Below are positions 36,342 through 41,934 of a DNA stretch of 64,000 nucleotides, piece after piece. Positions within the stretch are counted from its first letter, which is position 1; every line of letters begins with the position of its first letter. The position numbers were made by a program, and so were the translations under genes. The notes beneath the pieces were generated by a model. The model saw only the letters and a program-made list of their open reading frames with translations. It was not told the DNA's origin and searched no databases. Where the stretch lies: NCBI RefSeq assembly GCF_000022145.1, contig NC_011891.1, forward strand, positions 620,001 to 684,000. Reading direction: 5' to 3'. This DNA comes from Anaeromyxobacter dehalogenans 2CP-1. GTDB taxonomy: Bacteria; Myxococcota; Myxococcia; Myxococcales; Anaeromyxobacteraceae.

Positions 36342-37829
36342 ATGGACACGACCGGCACCCGCACGGCGAGGGACGGCGTCGCGTCGTTCCACGGCGGCGA
36401 TCGCCTCCTGCTCGGGATCATCCTGGGCGTCCTGACCTTCTGGCTGTTCGCGCAGACGACGCTCAACATCGCGCCCGACATGCGCCGCGACCTCGCCACC
36501 GGCGAGAGCGTGATGAACATCGCCGTCGCGCTCACCGCGCTGTTCTCCGGCATCTTCATCGTGGTGATGGGCGGCCTCGCAGATCGCGTCGGGCGCGTGA
36601 GGATGGTCCGGCTGGGGTTCCTGGCGAGCATCGCCGGCTCGCTGCTGGTCGGCCTCGCGCCGGCCGGCGGGCTGGCGGTGGCGTTCCTCCTGGCTGGGCG
36701 CGCGCTGCAGGGGCTCTCGGGGGCGTGCATCATGCCGGCGAGCCTCGCGCTCGTGAAGGCGTACTGGGACGGCGCCGAGCGGCAGCGCGCGATCAGCCTG
36801 TGGTCGATCGGCTCCTGGGGCGGCTCCGGGGTGTGCTCCCTGTTCGGCGGGCTCGTGAGCCAGAACCTGGGCTGGCGCTGGATCTTCTTCGGCTCGGTGC
36901 TGGTCGCCGTCATCGGGCTGCTGCTGCTGCGCGGGACGCCAGAGAGCCGGGCCGAGGGCGGCGCGGCGGACTACCGGTTCGACCTCGCCGGCGTGCTCAC
37001 GTTCATGGTCGCGATGGTGGCCCTGCAGGTGGTGGTCACGCAGGGGAACCAGCTCGGCTGGACCAGCCCCGCCTCGCTCGGCCTCGTCGCGGCCACGGTC
37101 GTCTTCGGCTGGCTGTTCCTCCGGGTCGAGCGCCGGGCCCGCAGCCCCTTCATCGACTTCGGCCTGTTCCGGAGCTCGACCTACACCGGCGCGACCGTCT
37201 CGAACTTCCTGCTGAACGGCGTCGCCGGGACGCTGATCGTGTCGCTGCAGCTGGTGCAGGTCGGCGGCGGCATGACCGCCCAGCGCGCCGGCGTCCTGAC
37301 GCTGGGCTACGCCGTCGCCATCATCGCGTTCATCCGCGTGGGCGAGAAGCTGCTCCGGCGCTTCGGCGCGCGCCCGCCCATGCTCTGGGGCTGCGTCATC
37401 ACCGGCGCCTCGATCCTGCTGCTCGCGCCCTCCAACGTGATGCTGGCGCGGTACGAGGCGATGGCCGTGATCGGCTACACGTTGTTCGGCGTCGGGCTTG
37501 CGTTCTACGCGACGCCCTCCACCGACGCGGCGCTCTCGAACCTGCCCGCGTCGCAGGCCGGCGCCGGGTCCGGTCTCTACAAGATGGCCTCGTCCCTCGG
37601 CGCCGCGTTCGGCGTCGCGATCTCCGCGGCGATCTTCACCGCGCTCCGCGCCGCGCCGCAGAGCGTGCGCTGGCTCGAGGGCGTGATCACGTTCCAGGGC
37701 CGGCAGGACAACCTCGCGGTGCGCGAGGCCGCCATCGTCGCGCTCGGCTTCAACGAGCTGATGGTCGTCGTCGCGATCGTCTCGATCGTCCTCACCATCC
37801 CGCGGGGCGAGCGGGGCCAGGGCGCGTGA
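36342..37829 (+). CDS. MFS drug exporter, DHA2 (14-helix) type
   Basis: A 495-residue major facilitator with about 14 helices. Motif A 'GGLADRVGRVRMVRLGF' is near residue 75, the arginine-containing helix 4 'GRALQGLSGACIMPASLALV' is next, and motif C-like 'WSIGSWGGSGVCSLFGGLV' marks an antiporter. The central two extra helices and the N-terminal 'FWLFAQTTLNIAPDM' agree with the QacA/EmrB-like DHA2 group. It would export hydrophobic compounds with proton exchange. Start ATG 36342 gives the normal N-terminus. Its last 38 bases overlap the convergent ygjV-like gene. Confidence 0.92.
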   Translation: MDTTGTRTARDGVASFHGGDRLLLGIILGVLTFWLFAQTTLNIAPDMRRDLATGESVMNIAVALTALFSGIFIVVMGGLADRVGRVRMVRLGFLASIAGSLLVGLAPAGGLAVAFLLAGRALQGLSGACIMPASLALVKAYWDGAERQRAISLWSIGSWGGSGVCSLFGGLVSQNLGWRWIFFGSVLVAVIGLLLLRGTPESRAEGGAADYRFDLAGVLTFMVAMVALQVVVTQGNQLGWTSPASLGLVAATVVFGWLFLRVERRARSPFIDFGLFRSSTYTGATVSNFLLNGVAGTLIVSLQLVQVGGGMTAQRAGVLTLGYAVAIIAFIRVGEKLLRRFGARPPMLWGCVITGASILLLAPSNVMLARYEAMAVIGYTLFGVGLAFYATPSTDAALSNLPASQAGAGSGLYKMASSLGAAFGVAISAAIFTALRAAPQSVRWLEGVITFQGRQDNLAVREAAIVALGFNELMVVVAIVSIVLTIPRGERGQGA

Positions 37830-38331
37830 GCGCCTCGCCCGCGTCCGCGCGCGCCAGCCGCACGATGGTGGTGATGCTCGCGGCGGCGATGAGCGCCTCG
37901 AGCACCGTGCCGCCGACCGAGCCGGCGAGCACGTTGTTCGCGAGCCAGGCGAAGGTGCTGGTGAGGAGCACGAGCCGCATCGGGATGCCCTGCATCGTGA
38001 AGACGGCGACTGCGCCCAGGCACGAGCCCGCCACCGGGATCCACCCCGTCCCGCGGGTCCCGACCCCGACCGCGAGGGCCAGGTTCACCGCGATGGCCGC
38101 CGCGGCGAGCCAGGCGGAGCGGTAGCGGATGGAGAGCAGCGTGCGGACGCCCGACACGCCCGCGCTCGTCGCCGCCGGCGGCCGGCCCAGCAGCGCGAAG
38201 TGGAAGACGTAGGCGACGCACTCCGCCGTCACGAGCTGCTTGAGGCGCCGGTCGTCGCGCTGGAGGAAGCCGGTGACCCCGAGGACCAGGGCCACGTACC
38301 CGGCCACCTGGGCCGGGGAGAAGAGATGCAT
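37792..38331 (-). CDS. YgjV family inner-membrane protein
   Basis: A 179-residue membrane protein with five or six helices. 'AQVAGYVALVLGVTGFLQRD' is the family opening, followed by 'RRLKQLVTAECVAYVFHFAL' and 'GVSGVRTLLSIRYRSAWLAA', all characteristic of YgjV-type proteins, whose function is not known. ATG 38329-38331 was taken over the longer frame to 38385 because the family starts near here. Confidence 0.88.
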   Translation of the reverse strand: MHLFSPAQVAGYVALVLGVTGFLQRDDRRLKQLVTAECVAYVFHFALLGRPPAATSAGVSGVRTLLSIRYRSAWLAAAAIAVNLALAVGVGTRGTGWIPVAGSCLGAVAVFTMQGIPMRLVLLTSTFAWLANNVLAGSVGGTVLEALIAAASITTIVRLARADAGEALTRPGPARPAGW

Positions 38332-38431
38332 CGCGGAACGCTCCTGAAGGGCGCGGATGCTGCCACGCGGGCGCGCGGCGTGCAAACGGCCGGAACCCGG
38401 CCACCCCGGACGCCCCCTGAATCGCGCCGCC

Positions 38432-38857
38432 TCACTCGATCGGAGCGGCCGCGGGGTCCGGTGAGGCCGCGAGCGATCCGGCCACGCGCCGCTCGAGCTC
38501 CTCGACGAACCGGTCGAAGCCGGCGCGCTGCCGCTCGTCGAGGACCTCGCGCATCTCGGCCCACTGCCTGCGCCTCGCCGCCTCGAGCTGCGGGGCCACG
38601 GTGCGCCGGATCGCGGCGAGCTCGCCGCGGTGGCGCGCGAGCACCGCGCGGAGCTCGGCGCGCTGCTCGCGGGTGAGGTCCAGGTCCCGGTCCAGCCGGA
38701 ACAGGATCGCGCTGGCCCGGGCCTGCTCCGGCGGGCCGGAGAGCAGCCGCGCCACCGCGCGCTGGACCACGGCGCGAGACACCACCGCGCCAGTGGCGCC
38801 GCCGGCCAGGAACACCAGCGCGAGGACGAGCACCACCTGCCAGCGGGCGCGGCTCAC
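38432..38857 (-). CDS. Periplasmic Spy/CnrX-like sensor protein
   Basis: A 141-residue protein with one N-terminal membrane anchor (about residues 8-27) and a helical, charged periplasmic domain. 'DLDLTREQRAELRAVLARHR' fits the LTxxQ pattern of CpxP/Spy/CnrX proteins, and the second helix pair 'EMREVLDERQRAGFDRFVEE' completes the hooked four-helix fold. CnrX-type proteins sense metals in the periplasm; the His/Met ligands of CnrX are not obvious here. It overlaps the preceding membrane-protein gene by four bases (ATGA) in an ECF sigma operon, so it is probably the sensor of that module. Confidence 0.8.
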   Translation of the reverse strand: MSRARWQVVLVLALVFLAGGATGAVVSRAVVQRAVARLLSGPPEQARASAILFRLDRDLDLTREQRAELRAVLARHRGELAAIRRTVAPQLEAARRRQWAEMREVLDERQRAGFDRFVEELERRVAGSLAASPDPAAAPIE

Positions 38858-39135
38858 GGCAGCACCTCCAGGACGTAGGCGGCGCGCGAGACCTGCTCCT
38901 CGAACGTCCGGTCGGCGCGCCAGCCCAGGAGCAGCATCGCGACGGTGAGCGCGGCCGCGCCGAGCGCGATCGGCCGCGCCCCGCCGGCGAGGACCATCCA
39001 GGCCGGCGGGCTCCGCAGCCGGGCGGCGATCGCCGCCTCCAGCCTCGCGACGACCGCCGCGGAGGGATGGAGCGCCCCGGTGGCGTCCCGGAGCCGGCCG
39101 AGGCGGGCGTCGTCGGTCTCGTCATGGTCACGCAT
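38854..39135 (-). CDS. Small single-pass protein, probable anti-sigma factor
   Basis: A 93-residue protein with a charged cytoplasmic part (residues 1-45), one membrane helix 'PIALGAAALTVAMLLLGWRA' near residue 55, and a short periplasmic tail. Size and topology match CnrY-type anti-sigma factors (about 95 residues), which hold an ECF sigma factor at the membrane. It overlaps the sigma gene by eight bases and the Spy-like gene by four. The sequence itself shows no zinc-binding HxxxCxxC motif, so it is not a ZAS-type protein. The role is inferred from position. Confidence 0.65.
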   Translation of the reverse strand: MRDHDETDDARLGRLRDATGALHPSAAVVARLEAAIAARLRSPPAWMVLAGGARPIALGAAALTVAMLLLGWRADRTFEEQVSRAAYVLEVLP

Positions 39136-39634
39136 GCTTCCTCCTCTCGCGCAGAAACGCTCGCGCGCGCACCAGCCGCTGCTCCACCGCGCCCTCCGAG
39201 CAGCCCAGCAGCGTCGCCACCTCGGCGGTGCTGTGCCCCTCGAGCTCCTTCAGCACCAGCGCCACCCGCTGCTCCGCAGGCAGCTCGTCCAGCCACTCCG
39301 ACAGCTCGCGCAGCGCGGCGCGGGCCTCGAGCGAGGCGCCCGGGTCGAGCACCTCGTCGGCCGGCGCGGCGTGCGTCTCGCGGACGCTCCGGCGGCGGCG
39401 GGCGCGGAGCGCGTCGAGCGAGGCGTTCACCACGATGCGGTGCAGCCAGGTCTCGACCGACGAGCGACCCTGGAACGCGCGTCCGCCCAGCCCGGCGCAC
39501 GCTCGCACGTAGCTCTCCTGCAGCACGTCCTCGGCCTCCGCGAGGTCGCCGGTGAGGCGCGCCGCGAGGCGGTATAGCCGCGGGGCGGTCTCCCGGACGA
39601 TCCGCCCGATGTCGTCGTCGTGGCTCGCCGTCAC
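39128..39634 (-). CDS. ECF-type RNA polymerase sigma factor
   Basis: A 168-residue sigma factor. Region 2 is 'LYRLAARLTGDLAEAEDVLQ' to 'VETWLHRIVVNASLDALRAR' (residues 20-80), and region 4 is 'LDELPAEQRVALVLKELEGH' plus 'STAEVATLLGCSEGAVEQRL' (residues 114-155). The start is GTG 39632-39634. It is first in a three-gene overlapping unit with a small membrane protein and a periplasmic Spy-like protein, the same parts as CnrH-CnrY-CnrX. It likely drives its own operon; I could not place its promoter in the 194-base divergent region. Confidence 0.94.
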   Translation of the reverse strand: MTASHDDDIGRIVRETAPRLYRLAARLTGDLAEAEDVLQESYVRACAGLGGRAFQGRSSVETWLHRIVVNASLDALRARRRRSVRETHAAPADEVLDPGASLEARAALRELSEWLDELPAEQRVALVLKELEGHSTAEVATLLGCSEGAVEQRLVRARAFLRERRKHA

Positions 39635-39828
39635 GCCGCTCCGCCGCTCCGGTCCCGAACACCTCGACGGCTTGGACGCCGCCGCCCGGGCCGACCCTAC
39701 GGCCGTTCCGGGCGCCCATCCTCTAACGGAGGCGCGAGGCGAACGGAGCCGCGAGGCGCGCCGCCCTGCGGGTGGAGTCCCCGCCGGGCGCGGCGTAGGG
39801 CGCCCCGGACCGGCGGCGTCAGAGCGGC

Positions 39829-40479
39829 ATGATCCACACCGAACCCCTGTCCCTGCTCGCCCTCGCCGTCCTCGCGCTCTCCTCCCCCGCGTCCGCCTCG
39901 GCCGCCGACCCGGACCTCGTCGCCCGCGCCCGTGCCAGGGAGTCCGCCCAGCTCGCCGAGCTGGCGCGGTCGCCGGTTCGAGTCGAGGCCGAGGGACGCG
40001 CCTCGGGCGGCCGGCGCTCGCGCGACCTCGCCTGGACCCGCGAGATCACCTACGCGCCCGACGGGACCGTGCAGGTCCGCCAGCTCTCCGGCTCGGGCGA
40101 GCGAGCGCGGGGCGGGCGCGGCGTCCAGCTCCTCGGCCCGCTCACGCTCGCGCCCTTCTCCGTCCCCGGTGCGCAGATCGCGGTGCGCCCGTCGCCCGGT
40201 CCGGACGGGAGCGTCCTCGTCGAGGTGAGGTCGCCCGCGGGCGGCGCCCTCTCCGCCGTGGTGGTCGAGGTGGACCCGGCCACCGGCGCGAAGCGCGCGC
40301 TCGAGGTCTTGCCGGGGGGCGGGGAGGGCGGGCGCGTGTCCGAGGCCCGGGCCCGCATCACCTTCGACGCCGACGGCGCGATCGGGCGCCTCGAGTCGCA
40401 CGCCGAGATCCAGGGGCGCCGGGGCACCGGGACCGTCGAGGTGCACGGCCGCCGCGTGGCCGCCGCCGCGCAGCACTGA
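39829..40479 (+). CDS. Secreted protein of unknown function
   Basis: A 216-residue protein with a signal peptide (cleavage near 'SASAADP', residue 26). The mature part is strongly Arg/Gly/Ser-rich with alternating beta strands ('AWTREITYAPDGTVQVRQLS', 'VLVEVRSPAGGALSAVVVEV') and no cysteine. I see no family. It begins a run of exported proteins (39829-41934), is divergent from the sigma-factor operon, and may belong to its regulon; that is inference from position only. Confidence 0.6.
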   Translation: MIHTEPLSLLALAVLALSSPASASAADPDLVARARARESAQLAELARSPVRVEAEGRASGGRRSRDLAWTREITYAPDGTVQVRQLSGSGERARGGRGVQLLGPLTLAPFSVPGAQIAVRPSPGPDGSVLVEVRSPAGGALSAVVVEVDPATGAKRALEVLPGGGEGGRVSEARARITFDADGAIGRLESHAEIQGRRGTGTVEVHGRRVAAAAQH

Positions 40480-40509: not shown

Positions 40510-40884
40510 ATGCTCGCCCCGCTCGCCGCCCTCTCGTCGCTCGCCGTCGCCGCGACCGTGGTCGTCACCCACCCGCGCACCGTCATCGTGGCGCCGCCGC
40601 GGCCGCGCGCCGTGGTCGTGGTGCCCGCGCGTCCACCGCCGCCCCCGCCGCCACCTCCCCCCATGGCGCGGCGGGAGGCGGTGGAGCGCGGCTACGGCTG
40701 GTGCGGCGCGAGCGGCTACGCCTGCGTGCTGGTCGAGGCGCACCCCCGCGGCCCGGTCTGGGACGTCCACTTCCGCGCGCGCCGACCCGGCGCCGCCGGT
40801 CCGCTCCGCGTCACGCTCGACCGGCAGACGCGTGCGCTCGTCGAGGTGGTGGAGCCCGGGCCGAAGCCGCCGCCGGCGCGCTGA
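40510..40884 (+). CDS. Small secreted protein with polyproline stretch
   Basis: A 124-residue protein. An N-terminal hydrophobic segment (residues 1-20) may be a signal or an anchor. A run of ten prolines at about residues 42-51 separates it from a small C-terminal domain with two cysteines ('YGWCGASGYACVLVEAHP') likely to form a disulfide. Function unknown. It lies 30 bases after the previous secreted protein gene on the same strand, so the two may be co-transcribed. Confidence 0.6.
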   Translation: MLAPLAALSSLAVAATVVVTHPRTVIVAPPRPRAVVVVPARPPPPPPPPPPMARREAVERGYGWCGASGYACVLVEAHPRGPVWDVHFRARRPGAAGPLRVTLDRQTRALVEVVEPGPKPPPAR

Positions 40885-41013
40885 CGAACCGCTGCCGCCG
40901 GGACGGACGGCGCCGCTGTCTTCGCGCAGAGTGCGATGCTACGCTGGCGCGGCAATCGACCCGTCAGGGATCGCTTCGTGCGAGCCCCCATCACCGCCGC
41001 TTCCGTTCACCCG

Positions 41014-41934
41014 ATGACCACACCGAAGCTCCCGCTCGCCACCCTCGCCGCGATGGCGTTCGTCGGCTGCGCCACGAAGGCATCGTCAGCCCCCGTCCAC
41101 CCGTCACCTCCTGGCGATCCGGCGCCCGCGAGCTTCGAGGCAGTGGTCGTGGGGACGATCCACCGGTCGCACCTCACCGAGCCCGCCTATCCGCTCTCGT
41201 ATCTGGCCGGGCTCATCGAGACCTATCGGCCCGACCTCATCCTCGTCGAGGTTCGCCCAGAGCCGTTCGCGCTCGGACGCCTCGAGGACGGGCCGTTCGA
41301 GATGACCTACGTGACCTGGCTCGGCCAGGCCAGGGGGATCGCGGTCAGCCCCGTCGACTGGTTCCGGGACGGGGACGTCGGCGTCGATGCCGATCCCGAG
41401 CCCGAACCCGCCGACAGGAACGCGTTCGAGGAGGAGACGGCCGCGCTCGAGGCGCGCATGGACCGCCCGCTCACCTTCGCCGAGGTCCACTCACCTCGCC
41501 AGGATGCGGCGGTCCTGTCCACGCTGAACGTCCGCGCGCGCTACCTCGCCGGCAATGCCGCCTGGAACCGGCGCCAGGCGTGGCTCCACCAGCAGGCGCT
41601 GGAAGCCATCCGCCGTCGGGGCGCGCACAAGGTGCTCGCGTTCGTCGGAGCGTTCCACCGACCGGAGCTCGAGGCGTTCCTCGCCGGCCAGGGCGGATCG
41701 GTCCGCAGCCCGCGGTCCATCCGCTTCGACGCGGCGAAGCGCGCCGCGGTGCCGCCGCAGGTCGTCCAGCTCTGGCGCGAGGGCGCCGCGCGGCTGAGGG
41801 CGCAGGCGGCCACGGCCCCGGTGAAGCGCGCCGAGGCGCTCGCGGGCAAGGCGAGGTACCTCGAGGTAGCGGCCGACCGCGCCGGGCAGTGCTGCGTCGA
41901 GCCCACCGCGTTCGAGACGCCGTCCTCGCGGTGA
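41014..41934 (+). CDS. Lipoprotein, possibly TraB/GumN-like
   Basis: A 306-residue protein with a lipobox 'AFVGCATK' (lipidated Cys about residue 19). The mature part begins 'FEAVVVGTIHRSHLTEP', then 'YRPDLILVEVRPEPF' and later 'HKVLAFVGAFHRPELEAFLA'. The 'VGTIH' and 'VGAFHRPEL' pair resembles the two conserved metal-binding regions (GT.H and G..H) of TraB/GumN-type proteins. The match is modest. Frame extension to 40936 adds only non-signal residues, so I start at ATG 41014. It is 12 bases upstream of the DUF429 gene. Confidence 0.6.
   Translation: MTTPKLPLATLAAMAFVGCATKASSAPVHPSPPGDPAPASFEAVVVGTIHRSHLTEPAYPLSYLAGLIETYRPDLILVEVRPEPFALGRLEDGPFEMTYVTWLGQARGIAVSPVDWFRDGDVGVDADPEPEPADRNAFEEETAALEARMDRPLTFAEVHSPRQDAAVLSTLNVRARYLAGNAAWNRRQAWLHQQALEAIRRRGAHKVLAFVGAFHRPELEAFLAGQGGSVRSPRSIRFDAAKRAAVPPQVVQLWREGAARLRAQAATAPVKRAEALAGKARYLEVAADRAGQCCVEPTAFETPSSR

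Follow-up and report, generated by a model that had tools for sequence, protein, structure and literature searches.

In the window, a 64,000-nucleotide stretch of the Anaeromyxobacter dehalogenans 2CP-1 chromosome, three overlapping genes probably encode a self-activating, near-closed circuit: a CnrYXH-type transmembrane sigma switch whose Spy/CnrX-type hairpin would control a CnrY-type anti-sigma factor in response to an envelope signal other than CnrX-type nickel or cobalt (Table 1). In the proposed mechanism, the 93-aa anti-sigma factor would hold the ECF sigma factor at the inner membrane by two cytosolic helices, and the 141-aa Spy/CnrX-like protein, anchored beside the anti-sigma, would sense something periplasmic and relax its partner, thereby freeing the sigma factor. 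The freed sigma would read CGTAGGG-N16-CGTC promoters in front of its own operon and of divergent secreted-protein genes, and reading of its own promoter would provide positive feedback while also renewing the inhibitor and the sensor. Sequence comparison supplies the components and their distant homology, as well as the conserved pair of promoters and the near-closed predicted regulon; we infer the binding among the three proteins, the direction of control and a signal other than CnrX-type nickel or cobalt.

Table 1. Features of the predicted sigma switch and its divergent neighbours (positions in the window)
Feature	Position	Strand	Basis or remark
ECF sigma factor, 168 aa, GTG start	39128..39634	-	Pfam, tree; CnrH role, outside CnrH clade
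CnrY-like anti-sigma factor, 93 aa, ATG start	38854..39135	-	hydropathy, AF2, hhalign
Spy/CnrX-like sensor, 141 aa, GTG start	38432..38857	-	alignment, profile matches, AF2
Predicted ECF promoter of the sigma operon, CGTAGGG-N16-CGTC	39675..39701	-	alignment, pattern scan
Second predicted promoter copy, facing the divergent gene	39794..39820	+	alignment, pattern scan
Predicted target, secreted 216-aa protein	39829..40479	+	89% identity in two trio-bearing relatives; dN/dS 0.27
Predicted second divergent gene, 124-aa secreted-type protein	40510..40884	+	block kept in G034 and G023
Third gene of the divergent block	40936..41934	+	block kept in G034 and G023

The sequence-only reading had described an ECF sigma gene, a 93-aa single-pass protein and a 141-aa anchored protein overlapping by eight and four bases, and an open reading frame check recovered all three in that arrangement, with the sigma gene first, followed by the 93-aa and 141-aa genes, each start having a purine-rich ribosome-binding site. 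The dN/dS values against genome G023 (0.24 for the sigma factor, 0.45 for the 93-aa protein and 0.36 for the 141-aa protein), together with the recurrence of the order and the overlaps, indicate that these are real genes. This gene order also occurs in two more Anaeromyxobacter genomes, in Sorangium and other Polyangia, and in a more distant genome of Anaeromyxobacter's taxonomic order, and in nearly every instance the genes overlap by 4 to 14 bases. A second myxobacterial lineage has an identical layout built from another sigma factor and another short single-pass protein. Of 195 genomes from the phylum, 24 had a member of the sensor family at E 1e-9 or better; a search of the open-access literature yielded no account of this arrangement in myxobacteria. 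Elsewhere in the window's genome, a second sigma operon on the minus strand at 4.4441-4.4456 Mb (L138; G000:C1:4439000-4449000) comprises an ECF sigma factor, a single-pass zinc-finger anti-sigma factor (ZAS) and a secreted Spy/Metal_resist-like protein. A third LTXXQ/Metal_resist match (L140; G000:C1:3426000-3437000) is immediately followed by a pair of genes for a response regulator and a histidine kinase, an arrangement resembling CpxP-CpxRA.

The sigma factor matched Pfam Sigma70_r2 (residues 13-82, 1.8e-15) and r4_2 (residues 109-161, 1.3e-16) and is of the ECF type, with regions 2 and 4 only and no region 3; about 20 ECF-like matches occur in the complete 5,029,329-base chromosome. In a phylogenetic tree, CnrH and the sigma factors of Y-X-H operons formed a clade of their own (support 99/96), outside which the window sigma clustered with myxobacterial sigmas. 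Some of the myxobacterial sigmas in this grouping have a longer anti-sigma factor alongside and no adjoining Spy-like gene.

The 93-aa protein belongs to no family in Pfam and contains no cysteine, so that the HxxxCxxC motif of class I zinc anti-sigma factors is absent. Hydropathy predicted a membrane segment at about residues 52-72 followed by a periplasmic tail of some 20 residues, and the AF2 model (pLDDT 78.9) placed cytosolic helices at residues 8-20 and 26-41 ahead of the membrane helix. These helices fit the pair by which CnrY embraces CnrH (PMC4598750). For profile comparison with hhalign, CnrX and CnrY family alignments were assembled from cnrYXH of pMOL28 and seven alphaproteobacterial plasmid loci. 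The 93-aa family matched the CnrY family at 90.7% (E 1.2e-6) over 36 columns, and the 141-aa family matched the CnrX family at 96.0% (E 5e-9); with CnrY or CnrX itself removed from its set, the values were 89.1% and 95.0%, respectively, and the sixty column-shuffled controls and the reversed controls for each pair gave at most 2.3%. The CnrY link is the weaker of the two remote homologies, since it fell to 27.9% with a thinned CnrY set. Comparison of single sequences with CnrX or CnrY gave no match, and family profiles alone produced one. By these profile comparisons, the 93-aa protein is a detectable, remote relative of CnrY. In two Sorangium loci (L042 6500-6904 and L043 3778-4167), the anti-sigma carries two tandem copies of its sigma-binding helix pair.

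The periplasmic tail of the anti-sigma ends in a conserved hydrophobic-acidic C-terminus. This very short tail, together with the Spy/CpxP-type family matches of the sensor, would suit stepwise proteolysis of the anti-sigma, as for RseA, in which the Spy-like protein would act as a protector or as a titratable co-inhibitor, in the manner of RseB or CpxP, and not as a receptor. We regard this as unlikely: the CnrY-like part places the protein in a class whose release is described as conformational, not proteolytic (PMC4598750), and the conserved block includes no recognised protease gene. Separately, a zinc-finger anti-sigma adjoining a Spy-like gene at another locus (L127 5055-5648) has the C-terminus AEVLP, where the window's CnrY-like protein has LEVLP; a tail of this type may be a docking site for the sensor.

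By itself, the 141-aa protein gave sub-threshold Pfam matches to LTXXQ (0.026) and Metal_resist (0.14), with 15.7 bits for LTXXQ (PF07813) against a Pfam cut-off of 24.3. Among 18 orthologues and relatives, LTXXQ was matched by 11 (E 0.1 or better, best 8.4e-8) and Metal_resist by 9, and a profile of the 18 sequences matched E. coli Spy (3oeo) with E 6e-6. The alignment shows an N-terminal membrane anchor with invariant G19 and G23 followed by a periplasmic helical hairpin, with an LTxxQ-type motif, LTREQ, at residues 61-65 and a second motif, LDERQ, at 106-110; the AF2 model is all helical (pLDDT 78.8). Foldseek and VIA-align searches with the sensor model, and a Foldseek search with the anti-sigma model, returned nothing informative, and the omission of CnrX and Spy from their hits is not counter-evidence. 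Taken as a family, the 141-aa protein is a detectable remote relative of both CnrX and Spy. With Spy and CpxP it shares a periplasmic helical fold family bearing LTxxQ motifs, from which it differs in being membrane-anchored and encoded in a sigma operon; Spy is soluble and is not known to be encoded with a sigma factor. Spy is itself a stress-induced chaperone, and the apparent targets in Sorangium and at L036 include LTXXQ proteins; both points would fit a 141-aa protein that is no sensor but only a chaperone, produced as an output along with the sigma factor and its inhibitor. That role is quite improbable for a CnrX-like, membrane-anchored protein with invariant G19 and G23, whose gene overlaps the end of the anti-sigma gene in almost all cases; moreover, L036, L042 and L043 each have a separate secreted LTXXQ protein besides the sensor.

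CnrYXH is generally regarded as a switch that responds to metals. All five CnrX ligands are invariant across the CnrX family; in the joint alignment, H42, H46, E63 and H119 correspond to L, D, L and a gap in the window protein and show no conservation among the 18 myxobacterial sensors. The remaining ligand, M123, is matched by M102 in the three Anaeromyxobacter proteins. The mature window protein contains one histidine, one methionine and no cysteine, and its hairpin is about 27 residues shorter than that of CnrX owing to two roughly symmetrical gaps, one in each arm. The sequence-only reading, which saw no obvious metal ligands, is thus borne out on this point, four of the five CnrX ligands being absent by alignment. 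Its suggestion of a metal signal finds no support as far as a CnrX-type site is concerned, given these four losses and the lack of adjoining metal-resistance genes, and a CnrX-type response to nickel or cobalt is unlikely. A true metal sensor like CnrX, in which nickel, cobalt, copper or zinc would bind the 141-aa protein, perhaps at another site, and release the sigma factor, would accord with the homology to the CnrX family, with the alignment of M102 and M123, with the copper genes that adjoin related sphingomonad Y-X-H operons and with the single cysteine common to polyangial sensors. Set against the four ligands lacking a counterpart, the histidine, methionine and cysteine content of the mature protein and the absence of adjoining metal-efflux genes, we consider such a sensor very doubtful. 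The cysteine in question lies between the hairpin helices (EKCG, ERCR or SECR) in the Polyangial sensors at L036-L039, L042, L043 and L047 and is missing from the Anaeromyxobacter proteins; in the sensors that carry it, the signal could be a thiol or a metal. At another locus (L139 5090-5551), an orphan anchored CnrX-like protein with a histidine- and cysteine-containing tail adjoins a ferritin-like gene and is accompanied by neither a sigma nor an anti-sigma gene.

The trio resembles CnrYXH of Cupriavidus metallidurans pMOL28, which responds to nickel and cobalt, in having an ECF sigma factor, a short single-pass non-zinc anti-sigma factor and an anchored helical periplasmic sensor encoded by overlapping genes, with remote homology of Y and X to the 93-aa and 141-aa proteins. 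The CnrYXH sigma has promoters at its own operon and at an effector operon (PMC9045368), a pattern matched by the predicted pair in the window. The order is nevertheless H-Y-X on the minus strand instead of Y-X-H, as had been noted from the sequence alone; the sigma factor comes from another clade, the hairpin is shorter, and both the metal ligands and an adjoining efflux pump are absent. Because order, sigma clade, metal ligands and adjoining metal-efflux genes all fail to agree, we do not class the trio as a CnrYXH system proper, and the earlier label of CnrHYX-like holds for the parts and for the remote homology of Y and X only. Sphingomonad CnrYXH-like copper loci (L181-L187) have the Y and X families in common with the window, as well as divergent probable target genes (copCD); unlike the window, they are arranged Y-X-H, their CnrX ligands are invariant at all five positions, and most adjoin a multicopper oxidase. 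These alphaproteobacterial plasmid operons mostly lie between divergent copCD and the multicopper oxidase, which suggests copper control.

Returning to the preferred reading, a switch answering to the envelope, we tentatively propose a more specific form: a CnrYX-type membrane module that has lost its metal site, whose Spy-like hairpin directly senses the folding state or some other condition of the envelope, without proteolysis, and which in myxobacteria has been paired with several separate ECF lineages and differing local targets. Relatives that lack the metal site and have a defined promoter and near-closed adjacent targets would reveal the function of the CnrY/CnrX module outside metal sensing.

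A predicted ECF promoter before the sigma gene, repeated facing the gene at 39829-40479, is new here. Alignment revealed two conserved, outward-facing CGTAGGG elements between these genes, each with CGTC 16 bases on. Since about 3e-4 sites are expected in the 194-base gap, counting both strands (an estimate from a control rate of about 8 per 10 million positions), two such sites are far beyond chance. In trio-bearing relatives, CGTAGGG-N16-CGTC stands upstream either of the sigma gene or of a secreted-protein gene that heads the sigma operon, and it also precedes several sigma relatives with other anti-sigma partners. When spacers of 12 to 20 were scanned, 25 of 33 matches had exactly 16 (two of the 25 being the window site recounted in L001), and 18 spacer-16 matches lay within 330 bases upstream of sigma genes. 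Exact GTAGGR-N16-CGTC sites numbered 5, 5 and 3 in the three Anaeromyxobacter genomes, not above the reversed-pattern control, and the divergent promoter pair was the sole site set common to all three. The other exact matches genome-wide were accordingly dismissed as chance. One of them, 95 bases before a SecY-like gene (L177; G000:C1:2281306), is probably such a chance match because it is missing from the two relatives. The regulon may be larger than predicted, since an exact-pattern scan can miss weaker sites. The CGTAGGG-N16-CGTC pattern could also be used for target assignment in other myxobacteria.

In relatives, the second promoter copy or the head of the operon is associated with an LTXXQ lipoprotein (L036, L042 and L043), an EF-hand lipoprotein (L037 and L039), a secreted protein (L041), an esterase-like lipoprotein (L118) or a MacAB-TolC-type operon (L047, with the ABC and outer-membrane genes read from the sequence). 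No single signal follows from these targets because they differ widely. Envelope stress, the other signal proposed from the sequence alone, is still compatible with the Spy match and with the secreted, LTXXQ, EF-hand and MacAB-type genes linked to the promoter in relatives. An envelope condition is the better guess, given the relationship to Spy and the nature of the target genes.

The best handle on function comes from the divergent genes and the pair of divergent promoters, both of which the sequence-only reading had missed. In genome G023, the trio and the three divergent genes stay together and the flanks differ. The divergent genes matched no Pfam family except for one chance match (E 2.2). 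Pfam searches identified the other window neighbours as MFS, YgjV and DUF429 genes and found no metal-efflux or resistance genes adjoining the trio. The downstream YgjV gene (37792-38385) was rejected as part of the system, being missing at the locus in G034 and G023. Co-occurrence of the trio with the divergent gene at 39829-40479 (3 of 9 genomes) was set aside as evidence because it tracks the closest relatives, and another neighbouring gene shows the same pattern. In the window, the ATG of the first divergent gene lies just 8 bases past CGTC (39817-39829), with a similar arrangement in G034 and G023, and its message may therefore be leaderless. The third divergent gene probably starts at the ATG at 41014, which gives a lipoprotein signal, and it may have a promoter of its own.
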